This document shows, piece after piece, positions 8,351 to 37,721 of a DNA stretch of 49,296 bases (the stretch's first letter is position 1; each line of letters begins with the position of its first letter). The notes beneath the pieces were generated by a model. That model saw nothing but the letters and a program-made list of their open reading frames with translations, ran no database searches and was not told where the DNA came from. The position numbers were made by a program, and so were the translations under genes. Source of the stretch: Beroe ovata (Eukaryota > Ctenophora > Nuda > Beroida > Beroidae); the NCBI GenBank assembly GCA_946803715.1, contig CAMPET010000112.1:121086-170381 (forward strand). Direction: 5' to 3'.

Positions 8351-9423
8351 TCTGCAAACTTATTCTCAAGCGGCTTGCATCAGCAGGCTAGCATGGCCAG
8401 ACAATCAACTTGAGCACAATGAGCTTGTGCTTACTGCTTGATTGGTGAGTGGTGATGATTACAGCTAATGTGAAGCGATGAGCACCTGTGAGACTAATGC
8501 ATTTATCTTATTGCTCGTGCTGCCCTATTCTACTAATTGTGACGGCTAACTCAAAAATTTATGTAACAGATAAAACAAAGAGTGGCAAACCAGGTCTTTG
8601 AGTGACACTGCTCACTGGCACACTACCCTTGAGTTGAGCCACAGTGTGACCAGTGTGAGAAATCGAAGAGAATTCAGATATTGGGTTGTCTTCTTCAATA
8701 GTGTTGTTCTAGCTATGTGGTCCCGGGCTTACCTCCATTCTGGTGTTATGAATTGAGTCATGACCAGCTTAGGTGGAGTTAAACGTCTTTTTATGGGCGC
8801 CCAACAGTCCTTCTCCTACATTTTTGATGCAAGAAATAACATGATAGAGGTATTTGTCCCTAGTCCATCCTCAAACTGCCAAAGTGTGTCAATCCTGAGT
8901 ATGAGAGTACAGTTATCTGAGTATGAGAGTACAGAAGTACAATAGAAATGAATCAATCCAAAGATCAATCAACACAGATTTCAGTGTATCTCAAGCTTTG
9001 AGCACAGGTGTGCTGAAGCATGCTCCAAGGACTTACAGTTTCCTGAGTATGAGTCATGAAATAACAGATAAACAGAAAGTGGCAAACCAGGTAAAGCTCT
9101 AATTTCTGAATTAGGTATAGCTATAACTGGATTTCACTCTACAGCAGGGACATGCTGCAGCAATCATTCAAATCATAGATGAATGAATGGAGGTCTGTTT
9201 TCTCTGCTGCTGGGGTCATATAAACACAAAAGAGAATATGCCTGTTTTTCTGGCGCTTTTTGTCAATATTCGGCTGAGATACTGGCAATTCTTGTTTAAA
9301 ACTTTGGCGTGTCATTTAGTAAGGGGTCATTTTCATGAATCAAAAATTTGTACAGTACTTTGTATTGGCCCATGTTTTTGCCTGATTTTCATCATATGAG
9401 AAATAAACTAGTGTAATTCAGGT
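8351..9423. other. Intergenic, upstream of the PM20D1-like gene
   Basis: No gene is recognised. A word of about 30 bp (AACAGATAAA...GTGGCAAACCAGGT) occurs at about 8568-8601 and 9063-9091, and CTGAGTATGAGAGTACAG is duplicated at about 8897-8935. An acceptor-like TTCAG lies two bases before the ATG at 9424, so the 5'UTR is probably spliced. Confidence 0.45.
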
Positions 9424-10929
9424 ATGGGAAAGATCAGTGCTTGTGTTCTGCTTGGTGCTTTCATTCTATTGGTCACTATCTCTTTTAGAACAATTTTGAT
9501 TTATGACTACCAGCAAAATGTGATACCTTGCTCTTCAAAAGAAGGTGTTGACTATATTTCAGTTGATTCACAACATTTGAACAGATTCCAGGACGCGATC
9601 AAACTACAGTCCATATCATACAGCATCCATGAATCAAATAAAACAGCACTAAAATTGATACTAGCTCATATTAAGGAGTCTTACCCAGTTATACATTCTT
9701 CTAAATATGTTTCCATGGAGCACTTTAATCTTAGTACATTATATATTGTGAAAGGGAGTGAAAAAAATGTGAAGCCAATTCTCTTGGCTGGACATATTGA
9801 TGTTGTACCTGCCGTATTGGAGAAATGGTCTTTCCCTCCATTTTCTGGACATAATGATGGCTTTGCAATTTATGGAAGAGGTACCTTAGATAATAAAAAT
9901 ACTGTTTTTGCAATTCTTGAAGCCTTAGAGCATTTCCTGAAATCTGGAAAGCAGCCTAAAAGAAGCATTTACATCGCTGTTGCACATGATGAGGAGGTTG
10001 CTGGCCACTATGGAGCAAAAGTTATTACTAAGGAATTGAAAAAGAGGGGGATGAGATTTGCTTTCATGATGGATGAAGGATGCCCTGTTTTAAAAGATGG
10101 ATCTTTCCCTGGTTATGAGGGACCAGTTGGCCTTATTTGTACTGCAGAAAAAGGTTATATAACGTTAAAACTTTCAGTAGAACATAATGGAGGTCATGCA
10201 TCCACACCTCCTGTTGATGGTGGTGCAATCAAGATCATAAGTGATGCAATTCAGAGTTTACAAGGGAGCCCAATGCCAACTTTATTTGGAAAAGGGGTTG
10301 AGGTTCCAATGTTTGAGCATGCAGCGAAGTCACAGTCATTTATTTTTAGAGTGATAAGTAGTAATCTCTGGCTTTTCAGTCCATTGTTGTCCATGGTATT
10401 GGCTATGAAAGATGCTACAAGAGCTCAGATAACAACAACATTTGCATTTACTCAAATGTCTGGTGGTGTCAAAGAAAATGTCCTCCCAAACTCAGCTAGT
10501 GTTATTGTGAATATCAGGCCTCTGCCAGGACACTCAATTCAAGATGTTATTGATCATATAACTAGTGTTGTGAATAATCCAAACATTACAATTGATATTC
10601 TTGATGGACATGAGCCTTCTTCAATATCTTCAACTGACAGCGAAGGATACAATGTAATCCATCATACCATAAAACAGATTTTCCCAGAATCGATAGTCAT
10701 ACCTGGTTTACTGATGGGTGGTACTGATTCAAAATACTATGGAGAGTTATGTGATGATGTTTATAGGTTTGCTCCTTCTTTCATAGAACCTGATGATATG
10801 AAACGAATTCATGGTCATGATGAAATGATAACAGTGAAGAATTATGGACAATCCATCAACTTTTTTCATCATCTTCTTATGAATGTGGGAGAGTCCTATC
10901 AATATTTCCCTGACCATGATGAACTATAA
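9424..10929 (+). CDS. PM20D1: PM20D1-like M20 family peptidase, intronless
   Basis: 501 aa in one exon. An N-terminal hydrophobic segment (about residues 5-27) is a signal peptide or anchor. M20 metal-binding motifs are in order: GHIDVVP (His124, Asp126), YGRGTLDNK (Asp156), AHDEE (Glu190-Glu191) and MMDEG (Asp217), followed by the dimerisation (lid) domain starting GGHASTPP and a C-terminal GGTDSKYY plus HGHDE. PM20D1 enzymes are secreted and make or hydrolyse N-acyl amino acids. Length and motif order match PM20D1 and yeast-CPS1-type members. The coding region lacks introns although neighbours such as DHRS1, Notum and the DSL gene are split. The next gene begins about 300 bp downstream on the same strand. 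Carboxypeptidase S-like activity is an alternative. Confidence 0.88.
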   Translation: MGKISACVLLGAFILLVTISFRTILIYDYQQNVIPCSSKEGVDYISVDSQHLNRFQDAIKLQSISYSIHESNKTALKLILAHIKESYPVIHSSKYVSMEHFNLSTLYIVKGSEKNVKPILLAGHIDVVPAVLEKWSFPPFSGHNDGFAIYGRGTLDNKNTVFAILEALEHFLKSGKQPKRSIYIAVAHDEEVAGHYGAKVITKELKKRGMRFAFMMDEGCPVLKDGSFPGYEGPVGLICTAEKGYITLKLSVEHNGGHASTPPVDGGAIKIISDAIQSLQGSPMPTLFGKGVEVPMFEHAAKSQSFIFRVISSNLWLFSPLLSMVLAMKDATRAQITTTFAFTQMSGGVKENVLPNSASVIVNIRPLPGHSIQDVIDHITSVVNNPNITIDILDGHEPSSISSTDSEGYNVIHHTIKQIFPESIVIPGLLMGGTDSKYYGELCDDVYRFAPSFIEPDDMKRIHGHDEMITVKNYGQSINFFHHLLMNVGESYQYFPDHDEL

Positions 10930-11225: not shown

Positions 11226-14200
11226 ATGAGTCTCAAGAACAAAATATGTCTCGTAACTGGAGCATCACGTGGTATTGGGAGGGGCATTGCCCTTGCACTG
11301 GGGAGCCAAGGTGCCACAGTTTACATCACCGGAAGAACCCTGGAACCATCAAGTACGGCACCGGGGTCCCTGGTTGTTACAGCTGATGAGATATCAGCAA
11401 GGGGAGGCGTAGCTGTACCAGTCCAGTGTGACCATGCAGTGGATGAGGAAGTTCACAGGCTGTTTGACCGTATAAAGAGTGATTTCGGTCATATTGATCT
11501 GTTGGTCAACAATGCATTTAAAGGTGACAAATAATTCATGGGCGAAAGCATTTAACGATAGATTAAGAACATTTACATCTAACTGTTGATTCAGCGTAAT
11601 GAATGTTATCTCAAATAACGCATTCAGGTGTTACAACTATTGGTAAAAACATCAACACGCCATTTTGGGAACAGTCAATAGACTCCTGGGACGATGTTAT
11701 GAATGTTGGACTCCGTTGTCATTTTGTTGCTTCACAATGTGCGAGTAAACTCATGGTAGAACAGAGAAGTGGCCTAATTGTCAACATCTCTTCGGCTGGA
11801 GCTCTCTTCGACTTCTTTACTGTCCCTTATGGGGTTGGAAAAAGTGGTGTAAGTAATCAAATGATAACACATGATAGTTTGACCAACCAAAACTTATCTT
11901 CAGACAATTTTTGTATTCCATTCATCGGCATTCATACCTATAGAATGATAAACAAGGTCAACGATTGAAAACAAACTAGCATAGAAAGCAGCGATTGTTA
12001 TGATTACGTCAAAGTATCTTTTCGTTATTGAAAAATAAACAATATATTCTCAACCTCCGCAGTTAGATAAAATGAGTGCAATGTGTGGTCTGGAACTCAA
12101 AAAGCACAATGTGGCAGCGCTGTCTCTCTGGCCTGGACTTGTCAAGACAGAATACATGATAGCAGCAAAGGACTCCATAAAGGTTGGTGAACACACAATT
12201 CCTTATAATCTATTTAGAACTTGTCGTATACTTTCCTTATACTCTCTTTAAAAAATATTCCATCCAGCAAGCCAATAGCTAAAAAAATTAAAGCGAATTC
12301 ATCATAGCAGCTCTCTCATCTCCCAGCAAATGTCTTATGTACATCCTGAAATTCACCAATCTTGAGAGGTACACAAAGGGATTGATCAGGCTGTTCATTG
12401 CAATCAACATCACAAACACCACTACCGCGATGTAGTCAAAAGCAGGATTCTGTTGTGCAAAAGTTTCCATCAATGTATCTCTGAGCTCTTCAACACCAAT
12501 AACTGCCTGCATTTTGAGAAGCTTTAGCACAAACAGTACTGAGAGCAGTGCAAAAGGGAGGTTACATATGATGTACACTAGCGAGACGATCAGCACAGTA
12601 CCTGCTGCATGATAATGCCTTCTCGTACAGCCTCCTATATTCCTAGAGCACCTTCTCGACCGGTTTAGCAGCACCAGTGAGCATATGGAGGTTATTGATA
12701 CTGGGATGATAACCATGCCCGGTATCACAGTAAAGAACACGATGCCCATTATACTTCTCTTCAAACTACCCCTCGGGTCTTCATTCTCCTTGAACTCGAA
12801 TCCTTTAGGTCCACAGATGAAGAATTGGGGTCTGTATATCATAACCGTAATCTTTGTTTGGAAGGCGGCACAAAGAAGAGCAGACAGCAAAAAAAGGAAC
12901 ACAGTTGGAACGAGCCACGCTGCTCTAACACAGAGCTGTGTCGAACCCCATTTTAGAAGGATGAAACGGGACACACAGAGCATGCAAATCATGAAAACAG
13001 ACATGTTGGGAAATATCACCCACGAAATCCCCCAGATATTGCACATCACTGTGTTGTTGAACATTGGTCCTTGTCTCTCGGGTGAGAATGCAGCGTCTAT
13101 GACCGGCAACACGGAGAGGCATATAACTGTATCCACTCCGACAATAATCATGTAGACAATACGGAAAAATTGTGTGTTCGCCTTATTAATCCTCCGGGTA
13201 GCAAAGTAGGAGAACGAGACGATGTTCGCGGGTACTCCAACGTACAGGATAGCCACGAAAAGTGCACCGATCACAAGGTCCCCTGTTTCGCTTCCTGGAT
13301 TCATCCTGCTATGATTAGAGTAGAGCCCTCTGAGCACGCACCGGGCAAAAGGGTCATTTCGGCGGAGACGTTGACCTGTTGTTCAACGTTATATATAAAT
13401 GACGAACATGTCGCGCCCATGAAACTATTATATGGTTAAATCAGTTGTGGGGAGTATTGTAGCGATATTGCTAACGTGATGGAGTATTGCTAACGTGATG
13501 GAGTCAAGACGAGCAACGTGAATATAATGGCTCCCATAATGGATGCTTGAAAAAATATATGAGGCAGTTTCAAGAAACGCAACTGAAATGACAATAGGTT
13601 CTCAGAAATGAGAAATGGACTATTTATACTGATGAACTATTGAGTGCAGCCTGATCGATGCAAAAGAAATCAACCCTTGAATTTGTCGAATTTGACAAAT
13701 CCGGAGTTTGCAGGTCATACAGTTTAGTAGGTACTGGTAGCTGTTACATAGTTGTGTAATACTAATTTCCAACTTGTGGGAACCTTTGTTTCATAACTGC
13801 ACGAAGTCGCTCAAGCAACGCAGCAATTGTGGACTATGAAAACCGGCCCGTTCCTCTTATGAAATGTAACTTTCCACCGAGTTCAGCTGCCTTGCGTCTG
13901 AACTCTGCACATGTACAACGCGTGTTTGTATCTCTGTGTATTTGTGTGTTTGTTTGAGGCGTTCTGTGTCTGCGTTATAATGCGTACGCTGTACAGTCAT
14001 ACAGTCGGAATCTAAAGCCAGCCAGTAAGATGGCGATGTTTGAGTCACGCTGCGACAATTTCACAGGGGAACACAAAGATGAAAATGGATGTGGATAAAG
14101 GTGAATCTGTGGAGTACACTGGACGTGTGATAGTGGCACTGATGAACGGTAAGAATATTTTGTGGGCATACCTATCAGAGAAGCAGAGAGAGACAGGAAG

Positions 14201-15120: not shown

Positions 15121-15633
15121 ACGGACACTTCATCTAAACTGAGTTGTTCCCTGTGTAAGTATTCCGGACTCCCAGTTTTCGCCTGCTTACAGATGATACT
15201 GATCATATACGCATCGCAGTGAGATCCGACTCATTATCATTTTATTATTGTGTATCATATATCTGATTCTGAGTTAAGTTTCTATTTTTTTCTGAAGGGT
15301 AGCCATAGTTAAACAACCCAAACAATGATGATTGATGATTATAATTAATAGTTTTGAGAACGTTTTGAATGTTAAATGAATTTAAAATTATTTTTGTTTT
15401 TTACAGTTCAAAGCTATTTTAAGTCAGATGTGCTATGACTATGCTTAATGCTTATGCAATTAATTTAATCATTTTTACGAGGAAATACTTGCATTGATCT
15501 AATCAAAACTTTCGCAAAGTCTGTTTCTGTCGCGTGGTTTAATTATTGATTTCTACTTTACTTCATGTTCACTCGACTAGTATAATATTGCTACGAACCA
15601 GATTCCTCTGACCACTGTTGTACACAGGCACAC
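15121..15633. other. Intergenic, AT-rich
   Basis: No coding region recognised. A TACACAG acceptor-like site ends six bases before the TMEM229-like ATG. Confidence 0.45.
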
Positions 15634-16116
15634 ATGTCCAAGGACGTTCCCCTACACGTCCGATTCTGGGTGTATGCTGTCCAGGGTGTCCTCTACGAGC
15701 TGACATTTACCGCCCTCTGGAACTGCCTGGTGTCACCCAACGCTCGGCTCATGGGTGAGAGCTCCATCTGGTCTGTATGGGTGTACGGGATGGGTTCTCT
15801 TCTTCATGAGCTACTCGTGTATAATAGACTGAAACACCACCCTTTCCTGGTTCGAGTGGTACCTAACCTGATGTACACGTACACGTGGGAGTACGTGAAT
15901 GGGTGCATACTCAGGCTGTTTGGGGCGTGCCCCTGGGATTACGCAGAGAGACGGTGGAACGTCCACGGTCTCATAACATTCGAGTACATACCCGTGTGGA
16001 TAGTGGGTGGGATGCTGCATGAGCAACTCATCGAGTTCATGAGTAGTATCTGTTGGTGCGAGAAGGTGAAGCATAGTGTACAGCACGGGGAGATGGGTAA
16101 AAATAAAGTGATGTAG
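15634..16116 (+). CDS. TMEM229B: TMEM229-like multi-pass membrane protein, intronless
   Basis: 160 aa in one exon. The fold-specific words of the TMEM229 (putative ABC-transporter type IV) family are present: RFWVYAVQG at the start, WVYGMGS, YTYTWEYVNG, FGACPWDY and GLITFEY. Four hydrophobic stretches predict a polytopic membrane protein. Human TMEM229A/B have no well-established function. The C-terminus is a short charged tail. An AATAAA overlaps the last codons (about 16102). Assignment to the A or B paralogue is not possible from sequence alone, so the symbol is approximate. Confidence 0.8.
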   Translation: MSKDVPLHVRFWVYAVQGVLYELTFTALWNCLVSPNARLMGESSIWSVWVYGMGSLLHELLVYNRLKHHPFLVRVVPNLMYTYTWEYVNGCILRLFGACPWDYAERRWNVHGLITFEYIPVWIVGGMLHEQLIEFMSSICWCEKVKHSVQHGEMGKNKVM

Positions 16117-17441
16117 AGAGTTGCTGTGCGTGATGACGTCATAGCTGTCATATAGTGACTCTTAGACGGAAACTTAGTGTTGTGAAGTTGTGAAATGTCG
16201 ACAATCTTATGTCAATGAGAGCAATGCATTTCGCTGACTCGCACTTAAGTTTTGTGTTAGGACTTAGGTGAAATTATATAAATTATATAATTTAGGAGAC
16301 CGTTGATGATCGCTCGATACGGTCTTGAGTCTTTTGTAATGGTTCTGTTTTTAAGAGCTAGAATTTAGGATGATGATTCAAAATATCAACAAGCACGCAC
16401 TTATCTTAAATTATAAGACGTCGGTGCTGATCCCAAAAATACATGATCCCGAAAATAAACGATCCCAATACAACTTTTATTAAATACGAGCAAATTTCGA
16501 TAGAGAACAATACCTAGTTGCTGAGCGCATGCGCTACAATTATATAGAGACATTACGAAATAAGCAGATGCTTATATTATACTAGCACTATTATAGCACC
16601 GTACCTATATTATAAGTTCTCAATATATTATATGTTTGCAACAAAAAAATAACGAATGGCCGCAATGAATCAGAAAAGTTTTTTATGAACACCTTTTTTC
16701 CCGGACACCATACTGGTGTACACTGTACTCGGTCAATAATATGCATTTATCCAGACGCGACGGTGGTACCGCAAAGTGGGGATAGTAATATTATTCTTCA
16801 AGCGTCTGATTGACGTGCAATGCGCCACGTGATTTTGATCTATACTGCGTGGCAGTCACGAGGTTATTAATGATAGATTTTAGCGCTGCCTCGCAATCCT
16901 AACGTAGTTTATAAGTGCCACTGAGATTAAATGGCCATTTTCAGGACATAATTAAGAAGTAAATTCTCGTTTCTTCTCACTCTGAATCCTATGGAAACAT
17001 ATTCATTTAGCTATATGTGGGACGTATAAGATATAACTGGAATGTCGGTAGCTAGATTATTAGCTCAAAAGAACGACAGATATCATCAAAATAGAATGGG
17101 TGATCAATGCTAGGATTCGATCAAAGTACGATGATCAAATATTGTTATATGATGTCTAGGCAAGAATTAGCTTGACGGTACATGTGTCTGTGCAAATGTG
17201 TCAATAATTTTTGACTTGGCTTTATTACGTACCGTAGAATTGAATATTTTTATATTATTGTATCCGATTATATCTTCCATATTTAATTTATTTTTCGTCT
17301 AATCAAAAGTCTCGTAGTTTTGAGTTGAGCAGCAGACCCTGGCAAATCCTCAATTATCACCATAATGACCAAAAACCAAATTTTTTTCTATTATTCCTTA
17401 TATCGCTCAGTTGCTTACTTTTATGATCTATTCGCAGCAAC
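16117..17441. other. Intergenic, AT-rich, no gene
   Basis: About 1.3 kb without recognisable coding sequence, with scattered AT-rich words. A TATTCGCAG acceptor with a pyrimidine-rich lead ends four bases before the AP-3 start, so a 5'UTR intron or trans-splice site is likely here. Confidence 0.5.
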
Positions 17442-20400
17442 ATGGCAGGAATGGGCGCATTTGTTGCAAACTACGATTTTCACAATCGCAACACTGCCGA
17501 ATCTACTGCCCCTACTGGCGCGGGGGGTTCCAACCTCTTCTTCAAAGGTCACCAGACGCTAAAGGAGCAATTACTGAGCATGAAAGACAAGGAAATGGTT
17601 GAGGCAATGCGGAAGATTGTTGAGATGGTAGCCAAGGGACAGGATGTGTCTGATCTTTTCCCGGATGTAGTGAAAGCTGTTGTTTCTAAGTCGACGGAGG
17701 TCAAGAAGCTAGTGTACATGTATCTTGTGCGATACGCAGAGGAGCAGCAAGATTTAGCTCTCTTGTCCATTAGTACCTTCCAGAAAGGGTTGAAAGACCC
17801 GAATCAGCTGATTCGTGCCAGTGCCCTTCGAGTTCTGAGCAGTATCCGAGTCCAGATGATTGTTCCCATCATGATGCTGGCTATCAAGGATTCTGTCTCA
17901 GACCTCTCCCCCTACGTTAGGAAAACTGCAGCTCACGCCATCCCCAAGTTGTATAGTCTGGATCCAGACCAAGGCGAGCAGCTGATAGAGGTTGTGGACA
18001 AGTTGCTACAGGACAAGACAACCCTGGTAGCTGGTAGTGCCGTGATGGCATTCGAGCAGCTCTGTCCCACGAGGATTGACCTGATTCACAAGAACTATCG
18101 GCGACTGTGTGCCATCGTGGCAGATATCGATGAGTGGGGACAGTGTGCAGTGATCAACATGCTGACACGGTATGCAAGGACACAGTTCACCGACCCAAAC
18201 AAGAAGACAGAAGAGAAGGACTCAGCCGAAGAATCTTCATCTGAATCTGAGGACAGTGAGGAAGAGTTCATGGCATCTCTACAATCCGGTCCAGTGGACA
18301 TAGTTGATCCCGACCTGAGACTCCTATTGCAAGCTTGTCGACCACTGCTGCAGAGCAGAAACTCAGCAGTCGTCATGCAAGTTGCACAGCTGTTTTACCA
18401 CTGTGCTCCAGAGGGTGAAATTGTTCATGTTGTAAAAGCCCTGATCCGACTCTTGAAATCAAAGAGGGAGACCCAGGTCATCGTTCTGACTAACATTACT
18501 ACTATGTCAGCAAATTACCGGCACCTGTTTGAAAATCACATGAAGTCATTCTTCGTCAACGCATCTGATCCAACCAGTATCCGCCTTCTGAAGTTGGAAA
18601 TTCTCACGAACATTGCCACTGAAGCTAACATTGGGGTGCTTTTAAGAGAGTTCCAGACGTATGTCCACAGTTCCGATAAGGAATTTGCAGCAGCAACAGT
18701 GCACGCTATAGGACGTTGTGCAGCTGAAATTTCAGAGATAACCGATGTTTGTCTCCATGGTTTGATGAATTTGATAAGCACTAAAGATGACACTGTAGTT
18801 GGAGAGAGCGTGATTGTCATCAAGAAGTTGCTACAAATGCAGAGCTCCGATAAATCCAATATTATCAAGAGGATGACAAGACTTCTTGAAACTGTAACTG
18901 TGCCACTGGCAAGAGCCTCTATTCTGTGGTTGGTGGGAGAATATGTCGAGAAGGTACCAAAGCTAGCACCCGATGTACTGAGGATTATGGCTAAGTCCTT
19001 CTCGCAGGAGGAAGACATCGTCAAGCTGCAGATTCTGAACCTGGCAGCTAAAGCATGGATTGTTAACAACAAGAAGATAACGCTGCTAGTTCCGTATATA
19101 CTCGCACAGGCAAAGTACGATCTCAACTACGACATTCGTGACCGTGAGCGATTCATCAGGAAGGTTCTCTGCCCGAATTCCGAGAACCCAGGTCCTCTTG
19201 CTAAGTATGCCAAGAAGTTCTTCATGACCAGCAAGCCTCCCCCAAACCTTAGATCAAATTTCAAGAGCCGAGATGAGTACCAACTGAGTAGTTTGTCGCA
19301 CATGATCAATGCGAATGCTGTTGGATACCAAACCCTGGCTCCATTTCCAGAAGTGGCACCAGACAGCTCCGTTCGTAATGTGATCGATACTTCCTGGAGT
19401 GCACAGACCATGGAGAAGGAGGGTAGTACCCTTCTCAGCAACAATAAGAACAAAGGATTTTATTCCTCTGGAGGGGAATCGGATGAGGACGACTCTGAGG
19501 GGGAGGAAGGATCGAGTTCTGACGATGATTCCAGCTCTGATGACGAAGATGTCAGTGATGATGAATCAGATGAAGAGAGTGGTGAGGAATCGTCTGATGA
19601 GAGTGATGAGAGTGATGTTGAGGAAGATGAGGATAGCTCGAGTGAGGAATTATCGAGCAGTGATGAAAGTGATGATTCCTCGATCGATGAGAAGCCGAAG
19701 AAAGTTGTACAAAAGAACAAAAAGCCTGGAACTGCAACTCTGCTCGATTTTGATGCCCCATCCGATGTACAAAACGAGAATGCCAATTCAAGCAAGAGTG
19801 CAACACTTGATGAACTACTTGGTGGATTTGGTGATATGAGCATGGATACAAATGTGACCGGCCCGAATTATTCACTATCCCAAAACGTTTCAAAGATGGA
19901 ACTGCTTCATCGAATGTCCGGTAATGGATTGAGCGTTGACTACAGTTTCCCCCGCTCTCACACCAATCCTGGCTATGTGGCCATAGATCTATCGTTCCAC
20001 AACACAACAGATAAACCTATTGACGATGTTAAGATAGATGATATTGATATGGCTGCTGGGATGAATTTTGATAGTTTTGAACCTCTCACCGTAGTCATGC
20101 CTGGTCAGACTTCACAGGCAAGAATCAACATTAATTTCAATGACACTCTACAGCCAGCCAAGTTTACAATATGTTGTAGTAGCGGGCGATTTCCCTGTAA
20201 AATACAGCCACCCGTGGGTGAATTGCTGTCTCCTTACGTTATTGTCGAATCTGAGTTCGATGCCATGAGGGGGAAGCTATCAGGAATGCATGAAACAAGT
20301 AACAAGTGTCCAAATTCTGGTCAAGATGTGTCCAGTTTGGGCCAAATCGTATCAAGAGTGGCTGCGACATCAATCTGCTTCTCTGCCGAGGCAAATTGTC

Positions 20401-20552
20401 TGAAGTTCGCGTCAAAGACCATTTCTCAAGAAAATACACTTCTTGTTACAATCAACGTCACGCCAGAGGAAGTGAAAATAGCAGTAAATAGTGAAGCTGT
20501 CGTACTAGGTTCAATGATATTGCAAGAAATTATGAATTCCATCGGTGGATAG
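17442..20552 (+). CDS. AP3B1: AP-3 complex subunit beta, intronless
   Basis: 1036 aa in one exon. The trunk (about residues 30-650) is an Adaptin_N alpha-solenoid with near-identical family blocks: VYLVRYAEEQQDLALLSIST, DPNQLIRASALRVLSSIRV, LTRYARTQF, RDRERFIR and EVAPDSSVRNV. An acidic Ser/Glu/Asp-rich hinge follows (about 680-770), containing a basic patch KKVVQKNKK. Next comes LLDFD, a good clathrin-box-like motif, then a beta-type ear (about 810-1036) including HRMSGNGLS and QPPVGELL. AP-3 sorts cargo from endosomes to lysosome-related organelles. A second acidic insert (ESSSESEDSEEE) interrupts the trunk at about residue 260. Absence of introns in a 3.1-kb gene is notable. Vertebrate AP3B1 and AP3B2 split later, so either name may apply. 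Confidence 0.96.
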   Translation: MAGMGAFVANYDFHNRNTAESTAPTGAGGSNLFFKGHQTLKEQLLSMKDKEMVEAMRKIVEMVAKGQDVSDLFPDVVKAVVSKSTEVKKLVYMYLVRYAEEQQDLALLSISTFQKGLKDPNQLIRASALRVLSSIRVQMIVPIMMLAIKDSVSDLSPYVRKTAAHAIPKLYSLDPDQGEQLIEVVDKLLQDKTTLVAGSAVMAFEQLCPTRIDLIHKNYRRLCAIVADIDEWGQCAVINMLTRYARTQFTDPNKKTEEKDSAEESSSESEDSEEEFMASLQSGPVDIVDPDLRLLLQACRPLLQSRNSAVVMQVAQLFYHCAPEGEIVHVVKALIRLLKSKRETQVIVLTNITTMSANYRHLFENHMKSFFVNASDPTSIRLLKLEILTNIATEANIGVLLREFQTYVHSSDKEFAAATVHAIGRCAAEISEITDVCLHGLMNLISTKDDTVVGESVIVIKKLLQMQSSDKSNIIKRMTRLLETVTVPLARASILWLVGEYVEKVPKLAPDVLRIMAKSFSQEEDIVKLQILNLAAKAWIVNNKKITLLVPYILAQAKYDLNYDIRDRERFIRKVLCPNSENPGPLAKYAKKFFMTSKPPPNLRSNFKSRDEYQLSSLSHMINANAVGYQTLAPFPEVAPDSSVRNVIDTSWSAQTMEKEGSTLLSNNKNKGFYSSGGESDEDDSEGEEGSSSDDDSSSDDEDVSDDESDEESGEESSDESDESDVEEDEDSSSEELSSSDESDDSSIDEKPKKVVQKNKKPGTATLLDFDAPSDVQNENANSSKSATLDELLGGFGDMSMDTNVTGPNYSLSQNVSKMELLHRMSGNGLSVDYSFPRSHTNPGYVAIDLSFHNTTDKPIDDVKIDDIDMAAGMNFDSFEPLTVVMPGQTSQARININFNDTLQPAKFTICCSSGRFPCKIQPPVGELLSPYVIVESEFDAMRGKLSGMHETSNKCPNSGQDVSSLGQIVSRVAATSICFSAEANCLKFASKTISQENTLLVTINVTPEEVKIAVNSEAVVLGSMILQEIMNSIGG

Positions 20553-30008: not shown

Positions 30009-31950
30009 AACCAGATTCTCCCTATGTTTCCTTCCCTTCTCCTGATCTCAGAATAAACAGTCGTGACATGAAGATGTGCGCGTTTAGAATGAAAGGACTA
30101 AAATGAGATCCCGCCTGTACACGCTCAATGCTCATTAGGCAACTATAAAATCCATTGTTATAACACATGAATGAAAACAACGACACTCACGCTATATTTG
30201 TATCCTTGTAACAAGGGAAACGTGACAATTATAATAATTCAGACCTGGGCCTATCTAACAAACCCGGGCGAACTTTTGGGGACATTGCATGGGCTATCTT
30301 ACCCGCTAATTAAAAGATACTTCCCCCCGTAATTCGTTGCAAAACTTGCAGGTCAATAGACCCTCCCTCTCCCTTCGTGCAATCGATTGGAGGGCAATAA
30401 CTCAAAACAGAGCCGCCCGCTCTTTTCGGCAGACTATTCCGAGTATATTAATTTGCGCCGAGTTTTAAATTTCTGCGTAGGCGTCCCATGATATGAGCGG
30501 CAAACATGTTCTTCCTTTGTCGCAAGCTGTCTTTGAGGAGCGGTCCTGCATCTTTGCCGATATATCACCGAAATCCGGTAACAATTTCCTCATTCAATTA
30601 GATAGCTCTCAAGGCGGGTTGATGGGATGAAAGGAAGAGTCCATCGTGCACAATGACTTGCGCGTCCATACAATTGCATACTATTAGGGGGGTGTTTAAA
30701 TGATGTCAGTGTGGCCATTCCATTTCCCTTGTTACAAAGCTAATATAGCGTCCACAATCAATCGGACTCAGTGAGCCAAATGTAATCTCTACCCTGTTTT
30801 TATTATTGAATTTTACCATTTTTTATTTATTTTAGGATCATATTATGTAAAGGAACCTATGACGAGAATACAGTTATTTAATAAATTAAAATGCATGCAG
30901 TAGAACACTTCCTATGACCATTTTTAGAAAGGGCAATAGAGAGAAATAGTTAACATATTATTATGTAGCTTGTGTCCAAATTAGCGAATGTCCATTTGAA
31001 TATTAGGGATTGTCCAGTGTACCCCGTCGTTAATTTCCATTGTCCATTGCAGCCTGTCCACATGTAGATTTGCACTGATTTACACGAGCTTAATATTAAT
31101 ATCCAGACTCCAGTAATATAATTATATTGTAACGATCGAACTTACTTGACCATGGATATGTGAACGGAAAAGTTGAATGTTCCTAACAAAACAGAAATGG
31201 TAACTTAAAGCACTGGCGAAAAAGCAGACGTTTTTCGCGAAAAAGAGACGATTTCGCAAACTCTCTTTGTGATTCAATTTTGTTTATTTTACCTAATTTC
31301 ATTTTACCTAATTTATCCGATTTATGAATCATCAAAATCTGATGATTCGCTCCCTATTAGGGCATTACTTCAGGCTCTTCCTGAAAACTGTATAGTTGTC
31401 GACATACTGAACGGTATATATTGCTGAGAGAAGAAAAATTGTGGCTTGAAAGAAAAACTAATGCGATATGATGTACTAAAACCAGCTTTTGTTTTATAAT
31501 TTGTGATGTTTTGTAGAACACTATTTCTATATTTGAATTTCCTTCAATTATTTGCTCATCTTCATGTCTTGGGACAGTCAAGGGCGGTGCCAGTCACAAA
31601 GGAAAACCAATATAATACTTGATCGTCAAGTTTTTCCATCAAAACCATGAAATCAGTTCACCATCCGGCATCGCACTGATCAAACCGCATCCAAATGTTG
31701 TTCCTGACAACAGCGGAATTACAATGGAATTCTGCAGTGGAATTCTGCAGTGGGTCAGGGTGAGATTCAAACTGATCGATCTTGAGTTGCCATCAGGACG
31801 AAATGATGTCATGTATGTCACTCTCATGGTGCCACCTGAGTGTTTTGGTAGCTTCAACAACAGGGGGTACTTAGCTTCCGGTTTCATGCCACTCATTTTC
31901 ATGAATGCGTTTTCGGGTTATCCAGTTTCAATTCACTTATTTTGGGTACA
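30009..31950. other. Intergenic between Notum and the DSL-Sushi gene
   Basis: No gene recognised. The frame at 31619-32068 (149 codons) and its antisense partner have no known domain. They overlap the left member of the duplicated block at 31951-32360, so I treat them as chance or relic sequence. Confidence 0.4.
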
Positions 31951-32360
31951 TAAGGCGTTGGGTCAATACTTGAGCAACCTCTCCCAGTCTCCCACAAATA
32001 ATAATATTCGATTCCGAACGGCCTCTTCATTCCAAACAATGCTGGCATTTGAACACAATCCAGCATGAGCAATTTAATGTTTTATCCTGTTTGAGTTTGA
32101 AATGCAATGAGAAATATAGTCTTTATTCATGAGGTTGAGGAGTGGATGGCAGAATTATCAGTCGAGGGCGAAACCCGAGCTGATAATTGGAGTTGAATCC
32201 GAGACCGAANTAAGGCGTTGGGTCAATACTTGAGCAACCTCTCACAGGCTACCACAAATATTCTATTCCGAACGGCCCTTTAAACAATGCTTTGAAATGG
32301 CATTTGAACACAATCCTACATGAGCAATGTTTTATCCTCTTTGAAATGCAATGAGAAATT
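31951..32360. repeat. Duplicated block around a single N, probable assembly join
   Basis: Sequence from 31951 (TAAGGCGTTGGGTCAATACT) to about 32116 is repeated with substitutions and small deletions directly after the lone N at 32210 (32211-32360). This is what two diverged haplotype contigs joined with a single N would look like. Confidence 0.75.
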
Positions 32361-32673: not shown

Positions 32674-35600
32674 ATGACAACTTTACATCCAGCTGGAACC
32701 ACGATCAGCCTGCACCAAACATCAGTCCCCATTGTTTGCGTCCTATTTCTGTCCACTTTTCGTCCGGTGCTCGGTCTTGCAGACGTTTCCTTCACTCTCA
32801 TATCGTTCTCGAATCCTGAGAACAAGCTACAAGATGGGAGCTATTGTAACCAGAACCAGACTGCGTGTGAAATGAAGTTCTCGTTCGATTTCAAGCAACC
32901 CATCGCTCTGAGGTTGCCGTGACAACCAATATGTGATACATGACAACCAATATGTGATACATGACAACCAATATCTGACATATGACAACCAATACGTGAC
33001 ATATGACAACCTAAACAAGCATTTGCATTCCTGGTGGACTGTAGAATGAGCACTATACCACATTTGATCACTGGCTATAAAAAGATTCAGTGTTTGATGA
33101 ACTCTCAATCCCCCCACCCCCGATTACCCATCTGCAGGTTGAATTCAGGTGGTGTTACAGCGAGCACGGTAAATTACGGAATAGGAGCAGATGCGATAAC
33201 CACCTACAACGATATGACCGCCCCCAATCCGTTCCCTGCTGACCCAGAAACAGATAGTGTATGGGAATAGGATGAATTGTTATTCTCCTATCAAAAACGT
33301 CCCGATCCACAGTCTTTTTGATTTAATAATCATTTTGTTGGTATAAATCCTACAAATAATAATTATTGAGGTGCAAATGGATCGGAGTGTGTGTCCTAGA
33401 GGAATATTGATGTGTATAATCTCTGACACAGGCGATCACAACCCTTGCGTTTATCATCAGAGTCTTTGACTACACCTCTGGAAGTGTGCTGAAAGTAGCT
33501 ACATTTACAGTAGATGAACCTGTTAAATTCCAAGTTCAACATTACTCTCTTTCCTCTGGGTTTTCAACTTTCGACATTTCGACCAACGTGAGTAATACCA
33601 ACATGACGCAACTTGACACCACACACTTTGACATCATAATTGACGCTGACATAACAACTTGTTGAAACCATCATAGTGGGACATTATTTTAAACTACATT
33701 GACACAACTCTCCAGATCTCCCTTGAAGCCATAAATAGAAATTGACACCACCCTCTGTTGTCACCACTTTACTTGAACTCATCTTTAACCACTAACTGAC
33801 ACCACTTTTCCAGATAACATGCCACACTGACTACTACGGCAATTGTACAGTTCACTGTGTTGCTGGGGCCACATTCACTTGTGACCCAGCCACAGGGGCC
33901 AAGGTCTGCAAGGTCGGGTGGTCAGGTCCAGACTGCCTTACAAGTAAGTAATAATATCCAATCAGTTGGAAAATATTGACAACCAAATTCACCACAAAGT
34001 TTGCTACTGGGATCAGTCAGTGTTCCCTAAAAACATACCGAAATATTGCTAACTTCTACAAAACTTTCCGAGATATCCTTCAGCTTTCTCGACTTCAAGT
34101 TAAACGTAGAGATAAATGTGCATAACTGGAACATTATTTCAATTCGCAGTTTTATCAGTGAAAACTGATCCGCCACGGCATTTGTTGTAATACACCCACC
34201 TCCACGTTCTAGACCCCACATGACTTTGACACGTTTTTACAGCCTCATCGCAATAGTTTTCTTGCTCAAATTCATAGGTAAGAATCATCATTCCCTATAG
34301 ATTGATGTGGGGAATGAGATATAGATATGGGGAATGAGAATGTATATGAGAATGCCAGTAACCATCTGTCATACTATGGCGGATCAGAAGGCTCACCCGG
34401 AATTTTATCTCTTTTTAAAAAATATATTTTGACACTTCTGATCCACACGCGGATCACAGGGTTCATCTTAGGTGACCCTTCTGATCCACTTTGCGCTTCC
34501 CTGGGGTCAAATTGGACTTTAGTGACCCTCCTGATTCACCTAGGTGTATCAGGAGGATCACCGAATAGTAACGTGCTAATCATAGTAACCTTCTTTCCGT
34601 TACTATAGTAACGTGCTGTTTTTCAGCGGTAGCAGTTCCGTGTACCGTACAGAGTGTTGTGAATAACGGATCCTACTCTCCTCAATCCTCCAACTACAAC
34701 ACAGGAGATCAGATCACAGTAACATGTGATCCGGGCTACCTGCCAACCTCCACCACTCTCACATGCCTCAGTGATGGGCAGTGGGACACAGCGTGGCCCA
34801 CGTGTTCTATAGCAGGTGAGGTTGCGTGTGGGCTAGCGTGTGAGTACACACGCGTATGTACTCACGCGTTTTAATCGTCTATAACGTGACGAATAACGCA
34901 TTGTCAATTCCCAGAGTGCGCTGCAGTCAACGCGCTGGCCCAAGGAACAGTGACACCAACCACTGCCACCACAGCTCCCTCCCCATACCAGACAGTGGTA
35001 TCGTTCTCCTGTAACAGTAAATACCAGCTGGCTGGAAATACCACTCTCACATGCCAGGCTGATGGAACGTGGGACTACGCCCAGCCAACATGTCGTGAAA
35101 TAAGTGAGTATATTTCCACGATCTTCATAACATTAACAATAGTAGTCTAAATCTGGAATCAGTGTCATGTTGACCATTTCCATGATTTACAGGATGCCCA
35201 CCGTTTACTCTCACGCAATACTTGGACATCATACCCTCGAACAAGAACTTTTCTACCTCTGCGATCGGTGAAAGTGTCGATTTCTATTGCAATTCTGGGT
35301 ACACACTGAGGGGATTGCAGTCGTTGAGATGCCTAGACACTGGTGTTTGGGATGGAGATATGCCATACTGTGTACTCATCAGTGAGTATGATCAATACTT
35401 GTGCCAAGGGAAAAGACTGTTAACATGTCCTGACAACACATATCCTGACAACACATATCCTGACAACACATATCCTGACAACACATGTCCTGACAACACA
35501 TATCCTGACAACACATGTCCTGACAACACATTTCCTGACAACACATTTCCTGACAACACATATCCTGGCAACACATATCCTGACAACACATCGCCACAGT

Positions 35601-36943
35601 GTGTCCGCAACCGCGAACCACGCCCCTCAAGGGCGGTGGAGCTTACTACGCCCGCAGCCCGCCACCCCGCACACCTGATAGTGTCTACTTCCAAATATGC
35701 TTCGGTGGAAACGTTGGCAAGGGTTCGGCTACCAGAACCTGTCAGAAGAACGGCACGTGGGATAAGAACGACCTTTTCGTGTGTTTAAAAAGTATGGAGA
35801 TAGCTGGCTGTGGCCGTGATAACTCTGTATTGTCGTTTACAGTTACTTTTCAATCAGATATAGAAATACACACACTATTCAGTGTCCACTGCATTTCCGT
35901 CTTCAGAATGTGATAAGATAACATTTGATGAAGGAGTCGTAACGTACACCTCCGAAATGCCAGCCGAAGGAACGACCGCCACATTCTCGTGTAACGACGG
36001 GAGTTTCCTTGTTGGCGAGGATGTGACAGTGTGCGAGGAGGACGGCACATGGAATCTCACAGTCACTCCATCCTGTATAGCGGGTACCTGCAGGGCACCT
36101 CCCTCAATCCCTCATTGTCATACTGATGGGTTCTGACACCGATTACTGATACCGATTACAGATCCTGCTCCCAATATCTGCTCACACCTGATCACTAAAC
36201 TCTGACAGGCTGTTCTCTCCCCGATGTTATCTCGTCCACTGTGGCCGTGACTCCGCAGGGGTTTCGGAATGATGATATCATGGTCGGATACACGCTCAGT
36301 TTCTCCTGTTCTCGTGACTCATTCCTAACCGCCTCATCGGTTATCACTTGTCAAGACACGGGGAATTGGGATGGAGAGTTCCCGGCGTGCGTTCCATTCG
36401 TGGAGAACATCGATGCCACGATTAAGGGTAAATACTGAGTATAACTAAATATTCTTCGTGATTCCTGGTAAGAAATCTTTCTTCCCGATACAAATTCTCA
36501 TAAGAAATAGAATTGCCTGCCGATGCCATGTCTAACTCAATCATTGCATCTTCTCAGATCTATACATTGCCGGGCTATCAACACTCTCGGGCGTGTTTGC
36601 AGTGTTTGTCCTCACAGTTTTCATCCTTGTTTACTTTGATCGCAAAGTAACGAAGAAGAGTCAAACAACGACAAGAAGACTGTCCTATGCGATAGCACCC
36701 AACCCACTGGCATTTAGCCCCCCGAAAAGTAACTCATTCAAGATGCAGCATGTTGTATCCTCTACAGCAGCTAGGGTTTCCCCGACTCCTGGGAATTCAG
36801 CGCAAATTATCAGGGGAAGAAAAACTGGGCCAATAAGTCACGATAGTGCTCCGACAGTGACTAAAAAGAATGGCAATGGAGAAGCAGGTGGTGTCAAGAA
36901 ATTCGTTTATAAGAACCCTGCCTTTGTGAGGGAAGACTTCTGA
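32674..36943 (+). CDS. Notch-ligand-like transmembrane protein with DSL domain and six Sushi repeats, 11 exons
   Basis: Exons 32674-32912, 33138-33258, 33432-33587, 33814-33943, 34627-34815, 34915-35103, 35193-35381, 35600-35791, 35907-36083, 36209-36427 and 36558-36943 sum to 2187 nt (728 aa, no frame break). A signal peptide (about 1-34) is followed by an MNNL-like domain (ADVSFTLISFSNP, DGSYCN; exons 1-3). Then comes a six-cysteine DSL domain in exon 4 (CHTDYYGNC, HC, TC, KVCKVGWSGPDC). Six Sushi/CCP modules follow, each in one phase 1-1 exon with the TW or GxW core (for example DGTWDYAQPTC). A single TM helix (VFAVFVLTVFILVYF) and a basic Ser/Lys-rich tail of about 100 aa end in REDF, compatible with a class III PDZ ligand. 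DSL binds Notch in known ligands; EGF repeats normally follow it and none are seen here. Likely a cell-surface ligand. Confidence 0.85.
32925..33012. repeat. 20-21-bp tandem repeat, about 4.5 units
   Basis: Unit TGACAACCAATATGTGATACA with substitutions, in intron 1 of the DSL-Sushi gene directly after the donor. Confidence 0.85.
35429..35592. repeat. 15-bp minisatellite in an intron of the DSL-Sushi gene
   Basis: About 11 units of TATCCTGACAACACA, varying mainly at the first three bases, run to within 10 bases of the exon 8 acceptor (35599). Because the unit is 15 bp the array is open in several frames on both strands, creating false open frames. Confidence 0.92.
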
Positions 36944-37242: not shown

Positions 37243-37721
37243 TGTAACACAACAGGAGAACCCTTGAGTCTCAGGATGAAACAATCACACTGCCCTGTAA
37301 CTGCAGGAACAAAGAGCAGTGTCCCATAGAAGATGGGAAGTGTCGAACAAAATCTGTGGTCTACCAAGCAACCATTTCAAGTGACTCACAATCGTTTGAC
37401 TACATTGGTATATCCGAGAGAGAGGTGAAATCGAGGATCTCAGCACACAAGACTTCCATGAGACACCGGAGCCATGAACAGGATACCGAACTCTCAAAGA
37501 AATATTGGGAGATGAGGGATAATGGACATGAACCAGTAATCAAGTGGAAAATCTTACAAGTTGCGAGACCTTATCAGAACGGGAGACAGAACTGTGATCT
37601 CTGCTTAAGTGAGAAATTACAAATAATTAAAAATAAGGATAAAAAACTCTTAAATAAGAAATCAGAATTTATTTCGAAATGTAGGCATGTAAGGAAATTT
37701 TTACTAGGTAGACATCTTTGA
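37243..37721 (+). pseudogene. Penelope-like retroelement relic: C-terminal GIY-YIG endonuclease
   Basis: An open fragment of about 159 codons after a stop at about 37240 carries PCNCRN..CPI..GKC..KSVVYQA, YIGISE (the YIG half of GIY-YIG), KSRISAHKTS, TELSKKYWEM, and the ending LCLSEKLQI...LNKKSEFISKCRH. This is the Cys-rich linker plus GIY-YIG domain of Penelope-like retroelements. The reverse transcriptase part is absent: upstream is the MITE copy 2 and a stop. It is therefore a 5'-truncated copy lying between two MITEs. The open state of this piece suggests a fairly recent insertion. Confidence 0.75.

Follow-up and report, generated by a model that had tools for sequence, protein, structure and literature searches.

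In the genome of the comb jelly Beroe ovata (assembly GCA_946803715.1) a stretch of 49,296 nucleotides of contig CAMPET010000112.1 (positions 121,086 to 170,381 of the forward strand; hereafter the window) contains a gene, located at window positions 32674-36943 (+), that encodes a membrane protein in which a DSL domain is followed by six Sushi (CCP) domains, and DSL and Sushi domains occur in the same order in a protein of a second comb jelly, Bolinopsis microptera. We consider it reasonably likely, with a probability of about 0.62, that the gene product is derived from Notch ligands and acts in a contact-dependent manner at the cell surface, its head carried by a Sushi stalk, a reading that is based on sequence comparison. 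The protein is not classed as a member of the Delta/Jagged group, since the EGF repeats and the Notch contact face of these ligands were looked for and not found.

Gene model and the Bolinopsis counterpart

In the rebuilt gene model eleven exons splice to 2187 nucleotides, i.e. 728 amino acids and the stop codon, just as a first, sequence-only reading of this DNA had counted (729 codons including the stop). All ten introns have GT-AG borders, and frame and phases close across all of them. The encoded protein consists of a signal peptide (recognised by eye), an N-domain of ~140 residues, a six-cysteine DSL domain, six Sushi domains, a transmembrane (TM) stretch and a basic tail, arranged in this order. 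Pfam finds Sushi in six stretches (E value 6e-45), the hydropathy profile has a peak of 2.5 starting at residue 607, and the tail contains 11 Lys and 7 Arg versus 5 Asp/Glu residues; the signal peptide, six CCP modules, membrane anchor and basic tail that had been proposed are thus all present. Neither EGF, predicted to be absent, nor MNNL, predicted to be found, is among the Pfam matches of the spliced protein at E values up to 10, a range in which the HMMER filters discard most matches above ~0.1, and no lectin family, C-type lectins included, is listed there. The exons are as follows:

32674..32912 (+), exon 1: start codon ATG, signal peptide recognised by eye, first part of the MNNL-like domain including both of its cysteines; phase out 2; SFSNPENKL-DGSYCN common to the Bolinopsis protein
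33138..33258 (+), exon 2: MNNL-like domain, last residues PNPFPADPETDS; PNPFPA common to the Bolinopsis protein
33432..33587 (+), exon 3: end of the MNNL-like domain (splice model, Bolinopsis alignment)
33814..33943 (+), exon 4: DSL, six cysteines spaced 7-3-7-8-8, phase 0-1 (Pfam DSL, identity to the DSLs of contig C42, Jagged-1 profile matches)
34627..34815 (+), exon 5: Sushi 1, phase 1-1 (splice model, Pfam)
34915..35103 (+), exon 6: Sushi 2, phase 1-1 (splice model, Pfam)
35193..35381 (+), exon 7: Sushi 3, phase 1-1, 63 codons; 63-residue gap of the Bolinopsis protein at about this place
35600..35791 (+), exon 8: Sushi 4, phase 1-1 (splice model, Pfam)
35907..36083 (+), exon 9: Sushi 5, phase 1-1 (splice model, Pfam)
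36209..36427 (+), exon 10: Sushi 6 followed by the juxtamembrane linker, phase 1-1 (splice model, Pfam, Bolinopsis alignment)
36558..36943 (+), exon 11: TM stretch, basic cytoplasmic tail of ~100 residues with the C-terminus NPAFVREDF, stop (splice model, Bolinopsis alignment)

The closest of 20 homologues, all of which carry Sushi, is a Bolinopsis microptera protein named 'P-selectin-like' (P0001; E 1.5e-138; the 7996 candidates that have most words in common with the query were scored). It is collinear with the window protein from the signal peptide through the head exons and the TM stretch to the final residues, i.e. signal peptide, MNNL-like domain, DSL, Sushi and TM follow each other in identical order. 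The difference lies in the number of Sushi domains, five in P0001 versus six in the window protein, and P0001 lacks one stretch of 63 residues, which is the length of exon 7. The heads alone are 46% identical (E 2e-42); the tails are largely dissimilar but end similarly, in NPAFVREDF in the window protein and in NQAFVDDF in P0001. As P0001 aligns end to end, we are dealing with one gene of conserved architecture, and the search for the same order in related genomes, suggested earlier, has succeeded with a single predicted protein that comprises head, Sushi, TM and tail. In searches with the head only (window residues 34-218 and P0001 residues 34-225) P0001 was the sole match (E up to 10; 939 and 125 candidates, respectively), so that the head is lineage-specific, as had been proposed, as far as these searches reach.

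The name of P0001 does not mention DSL, and its precomputed Pfam annotation comprises Sushi only. Selectins possess a cysteine-rich small domain that is followed by Sushi domains and a TM stretch, a layout that the window protein resembles. However, no C-type lectin domain is listed for the window protein, its small domain is a DSL and not an EGF, and no lectin domain was found in P0001. We therefore reject the assignment as selectin; the name conceals a Delta-like head.

The weakest splice donor is that of exon 1 (GAG/gttgcc), and the donors of exon 2 (gtatgg), exon 8 (gtatgg) and exon 9 (gtacct) are off-consensus, too; P0001 is aligned gap-free across the junction of exons 1 and 2. The intron phases are 2, 0 and 0 in the head and 1 at all later boundaries, beginning with that after the DSL exon. 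The exon shuffling that had been deduced from phase 1-1 Sushi exons is upheld in part: all six Sushi exons are symmetric and the difference between the two species corresponds in length to exon 7, but the DSL exon has phase 0-1 and is therefore by itself no symmetric shuffling unit.

On reading the introns, short tandem repeats were noticed in intron 1 (32925-33005, gacaaccaatatgtgatacat-like) and intron 7 (about 35421-35590, ctgacaacacatatc-like), the latter with one frame open throughout (open reading frame 35186-35788).

Identity of the DSL domain and the N-domain

The window DSL is 59% identical to two DSLs of another contig of the assembly, C42 (E 2.8e-7 and 5.3e-7), which score 36-43 bits (36.4 for one) and are above the Pfam cut-off. 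As a 59%-identical paralogue exceeds this cut-off, the identity of the window DSL is secured. When the heads of the window protein, P0001 and C42 were combined in a profile, it matched eight sequences of the PDB at E values up to 10, all of them Notch ligands, with Jagged-1 as best match (E 6e-7, profile positions 11-178 aligned). The profile of the window protein and P0001 gave six matches: Jagged-1 ranks first and second (E 0.0026 and 0.0045, aligned across the DSL and its immediate upstream residues), Jagged-2 is fourth (E 0.36) and the remaining three are unrelated. The spacing of the cysteines leaves eight residues between C4 and C5, the place where EGF domains have a single one. An EGF mis-scored as DSL is rejected on account of this spacing, which is unlike EGF, and because no EGF is listed for the window protein; in accord with the earlier prediction, exon 4 was not scored as EGF. 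Additionally, an HRM match (E 8e-4) lies under the HRM cut-off.

The N-domain was compared with a profile built from the corresponding domains of DLL1, JAG1 (the sequence that was checked), DLL4 and Drosophila Delta. In hhalign a profile of two N-domain sequences aligned 21 columns at the corresponding N-terminal place (P 0.042), and one of three sequences aligned 99 collinear columns (P 0.004). As a mild control, column shuffles scored as high as the N-domain in 1 of 200 cases (A3) and in 0 of 200 (A8, to which the C42 head, joined by eye, contributes). These values lend support to, rather than prove, a homology of the N-domain and MNNL, which we regard as probable. Pfam MNNL, which does not match the window protein, did not match in the genome search either, where its control likewise gave none. 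According to passages in PMC5684314 and PMC3482393, domain software misses MNNL in most sponge Deltas, too. The definitions of Delta in the passages concerned differ: PMC6040629 takes MNNL plus DSL as strong evidence and does not require EGF, PMC8166818 defines Delta by DSL, MNLL and EGF.

Several results weigh against a descent from Notch ligands. The Pfam DSL match of the full protein (residues 175-214, E 0.0019) reaches 18.9 bits, compared to a gathering score of 24.2, and that of the N-terminal piece alone 21.5 bits (E 2.8e-4), which is still too low; the DSL match that had been expected is thus borne out by the C42 paralogue and the Jagged-1 profile matches but not by the score. The DSL of P0001 is sub-threshold as well (E 0.0015), with a weak EGF_Teneurin match (E 0.0069) ranked after it. 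Searched against the PDB, the N-domain alone found no Notch ligand, and the hhalign probabilities for N-domain versus MNNL are low (1.2% with two sequences, 8.5% with three). Finally, an AlphaFold2 model (P0001 and three window exons) is unusable, with a pLDDT (predicted local distance difference test) of 38.8.

Notch-binding face, Notch pathway and other DSL genes

The Notch-binding face of Jagged-1 is formed by F199, R201, R203, D205 and F207, according to the relevant passage of PMC3415683, and the exchange F207A is stated in PMC3888931 to reduce binding to background. The window DSL retains none of these five residues. H, V and G occupy the first three positions, and the C3-C4 contact loop has 7 residues versus 11 in Jagged-1, leaving the remaining contacts without equivalent; the loop of P0001 is shortened in the same way. 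The C42 DSLs retain the 11-residue loop but not the contact residues.

The assembly (77.8 Mb, 534 contigs) was searched for components of the Notch pathway. The two LNR matches lie within one Stealth protein, which we take to be GNPTAB. Neither of the two NOD matches reaches the cut-off; one belongs to an open frame that by eye resembles a transporter, and the second to a frame of 52 codons. NODP gave no match, its control being silent as well. Of 16 matches to the human Notch ankyrin query two loci were opened, which appear by eye to be a TRP-channel-like and a HECT-type ankyrin protein, neither of them Notch, and the 3' sides of three EGF-rich loci contain no Notch intracellular part (by eye). 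A Notch receptor is hence not recognised in the assembly by LNR, NOD, NODP and ankyrin searches, which does not amount to its absence. CSL and presenilin domains were found, as was MIB_HERC2, which occurs in Mindbomb and HERC2. With the contacts lost, the loop shortened, MNNL undetected by Pfam and the receptor unrecognised, the Notch binding that the sequence-only reading had envisaged is not supported.

At E<=0.001 the Pfam DSL search of the assembly yielded 22 matches, distributed over eight contigs; the window's own exon was not among them. On the nine DSL contigs, i.e. that of the window (C112) and the eight others, there is no EGF or EGF_CA match among those listed at E<=0.001 (51 and 86, respectively). 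On C42 (203995-208144, -, L032/L033) two tandem copies with a period of 2049 bp are ~89% identical over 1900 compared bases. Both contain MNNL-like exons and a DSL of canonical loop length, and one TM exon follows the second copy (putative exon borders). C42 looks like a minimal Delta-like gene in which neither EGF nor Sushi was seen. Other loci encode several DSLs in series:

C209, 4266-5984 (-), L037: single open frame, N-terminal domain, 4 Pfam DSL stretches, TM, tail with 6 YxxL/I/V/M motifs
C198, 4242-5939 (+), L038: single open frame, N-terminal domain, 4 Pfam DSL stretches, TM, tail with 5 YxxL/I/V/M motifs
C220, 4063-5892 (-), L040: single open frame, N-terminal domain, 2 Pfam DSL stretches, TM; tail with 10 YxxL/I/V/M motifs in C220/C519
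C519, 4425-6254 (-), L041: sharing 601 of 610 residues with C220

The latter two probably represent alleles. Shuffled tails would lead one to expect about 1 (C209), 1 (C198) and 2.7 (C220/C519) motifs, and the observed count was reached in none of 1000 shuffles. These proteins may be DSL receptors with immune-type tyrosine tails, and nothing resembling such receptors was among the matches listed in a literature search. The tail of C231 has 20 residues and no such motif. Like the window protein, the tandem-DSL genes (C209, C198, C220/C519, C231, C77, C53) encode DSL proteins without Delta-type EGF, but they have several DSLs in series and no Sushi, whereas the window protein combines a single DSL with Sushi. 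A laminin-type EGF profile matches most tandem-DSL proteins examined. When their N-domains were tested as MNNL, the profile gave P 0.018 and 3 of 200 shuffles attained its score; no link to the MNNL-like domain of the window protein was seen (P 0.13). At E<=1 a profile of N-domain and first DSL matched exclusively Notch ligands in the PDB, 11 sequences in total, each of them over the DSL part. DSL is a widely used module in this assembly, which makes a role outside Notch credible for the window gene, too.

Elsewhere in the window two flanking open frames without Pfam match were noted, at 31616-32065 (+; 150 codons) and at 37248-37718 (+; 157 codons), the latter by eye like a retroelement GIY-YIG fragment. 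The neighbouring genes, assigned by Pfam, are:

9412-10926 (+): M20 peptidase
12288-13379 (-): rhodopsin-family G-protein-coupled receptor
15586-16113 (+): PF06541 (CmpB-like) membrane protein
17427-20549 (+): AP-3 beta adaptin, a single long open frame

Possible function and rival explanations

We suggest that the window protein is a single-pass membrane protein that would descend from the DSL (Notch-ligand) family. The six Sushi modules may hold the head of MNNL/C2-like domain and DSL off the cell, in place of the EGF stalk of Delta/Jagged, so that the head would be displayed on one cell and recognised by a receptor of a neighbouring cell, and sorting or endocytosis may be under the control of the short basic tail, the N-P/Q-AFV end of which is conserved. 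The protein shares with Delta/Jagged an MNNL-like domain followed by DSL near the N-terminus and one TM stretch, but it has Sushi where Delta/Jagged have EGF, and the contact residues of Jagged-1 are missing. An EGF-less DSL protein alone is not new, the precedent being AmqDelta4 of the sponge Amphimedon, described as MNLL, DSL and TM without EGF in a passage of PMC3482393 that does not mention Sushi for it. Ctenophore DSL proteins have been noticed before, as passages of PMC4335385 and PMC4810162 mention Delta-like or Delta proteins; the latter states Delta orthologues for ctenophores, but the passage holds no information on their domain architecture. No description of DSL combined with Sushi or CCP was found among the listed open-access literature matches.

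Three more specific readings, i.e. a working Notch ligand, a Notch antagonist and an adhesion or recognition protein, overlap with that of a Notch-ligand-derived surface protein and name its partner. Notch in either role is the less probable case overall, and binding would then not proceed via the residues used by Jagged-1. As a working ligand, which we regard as rather unlikely, the protein would be a ctenophore Delta overlooked by surveys that demand EGF or a recognisable MNNL: its diverged face would bind ctenophore Notch, Sushi would replace EGF1-2, and ligand endocytosis would pull the receptor open. This is in line with the relationship of the head to Jagged/Delta seen in PDB profile matches and shuffles, with the CSL, presenilin and MIB_HERC2 domains of the assembly, and with the literature in the passages concerned. 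For Beroe and Mnemiopsis, PMC8166818 reports Notch together with presenilin and Su(H), and 'neither Delta nor Jagged'; PMC4335385 places a Notch homologue in all five major animal clades, finds no definitive Delta in ctenophores, which yet 'possess many Delta-like proteins', and calls the role of ctenophore Notch unpredictable, given the lack of a definitive Delta and unknown expression. It is opposed by the loss of all five Jagged-1 contacts, the loop shortened by four residues in both species, the lack of EGF1-2 and a Notch bearing LNR, NOD, NODP or Notch-type ankyrin that is not recognised in the assembly. That the protein is the missing ctenophore Notch ligand, its MNNL-DSL head on a Sushi stalk activating Notch via a rebuilt contact face, is likewise rather unlikely.

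An antagonist would occupy Notch in cis or trans without pulling the receptor open, which would be consistent with a DSL head that is retained while EGF and the known contact residues are lost; as the same residues serve cis interactions, according to a passage of PMC3415683, this loss rather counts against it, as does the unrecognised receptor, making this role improbable. Possible, albeit unlikely, is a role in adhesion or immune-type recognition unrelated to Notch, with DSL as a general recognition module of the lineage, to which the lost contact face, the tandem-DSL membrane proteins, whose tails in several cases contain many YxxL/V/I/M motifs, and the Sushi domains that a passage of PMC11797021 includes in the candidate immune receptors of Mnemiopsis would fit. 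The window protein, however, has a single DSL directly after an MNNL-like domain, and its tail lacks tyrosine motifs of this kind. Highly improbable, finally, is a fusion of two adjacent genes in the gene model. The weak donor of exon 1 and a model known from genomic sequence alone would allow for it, but it is contradicted by the collinear P0001, which combines the same head, Sushi, TM and tail, and by phases that close over ten introns, and we reject it.

Taken together, a gene conserved between two comb jellies and obscured by a selectin name provides a directly testable candidate for a ctenophore Notch ligand. If its product does bind Notch, the EGF stalk of Delta would be replaceable and ctenophore Notch would gain a ligand; otherwise, an early-branching animal lineage would use DSL heads for recognition independent of Notch.

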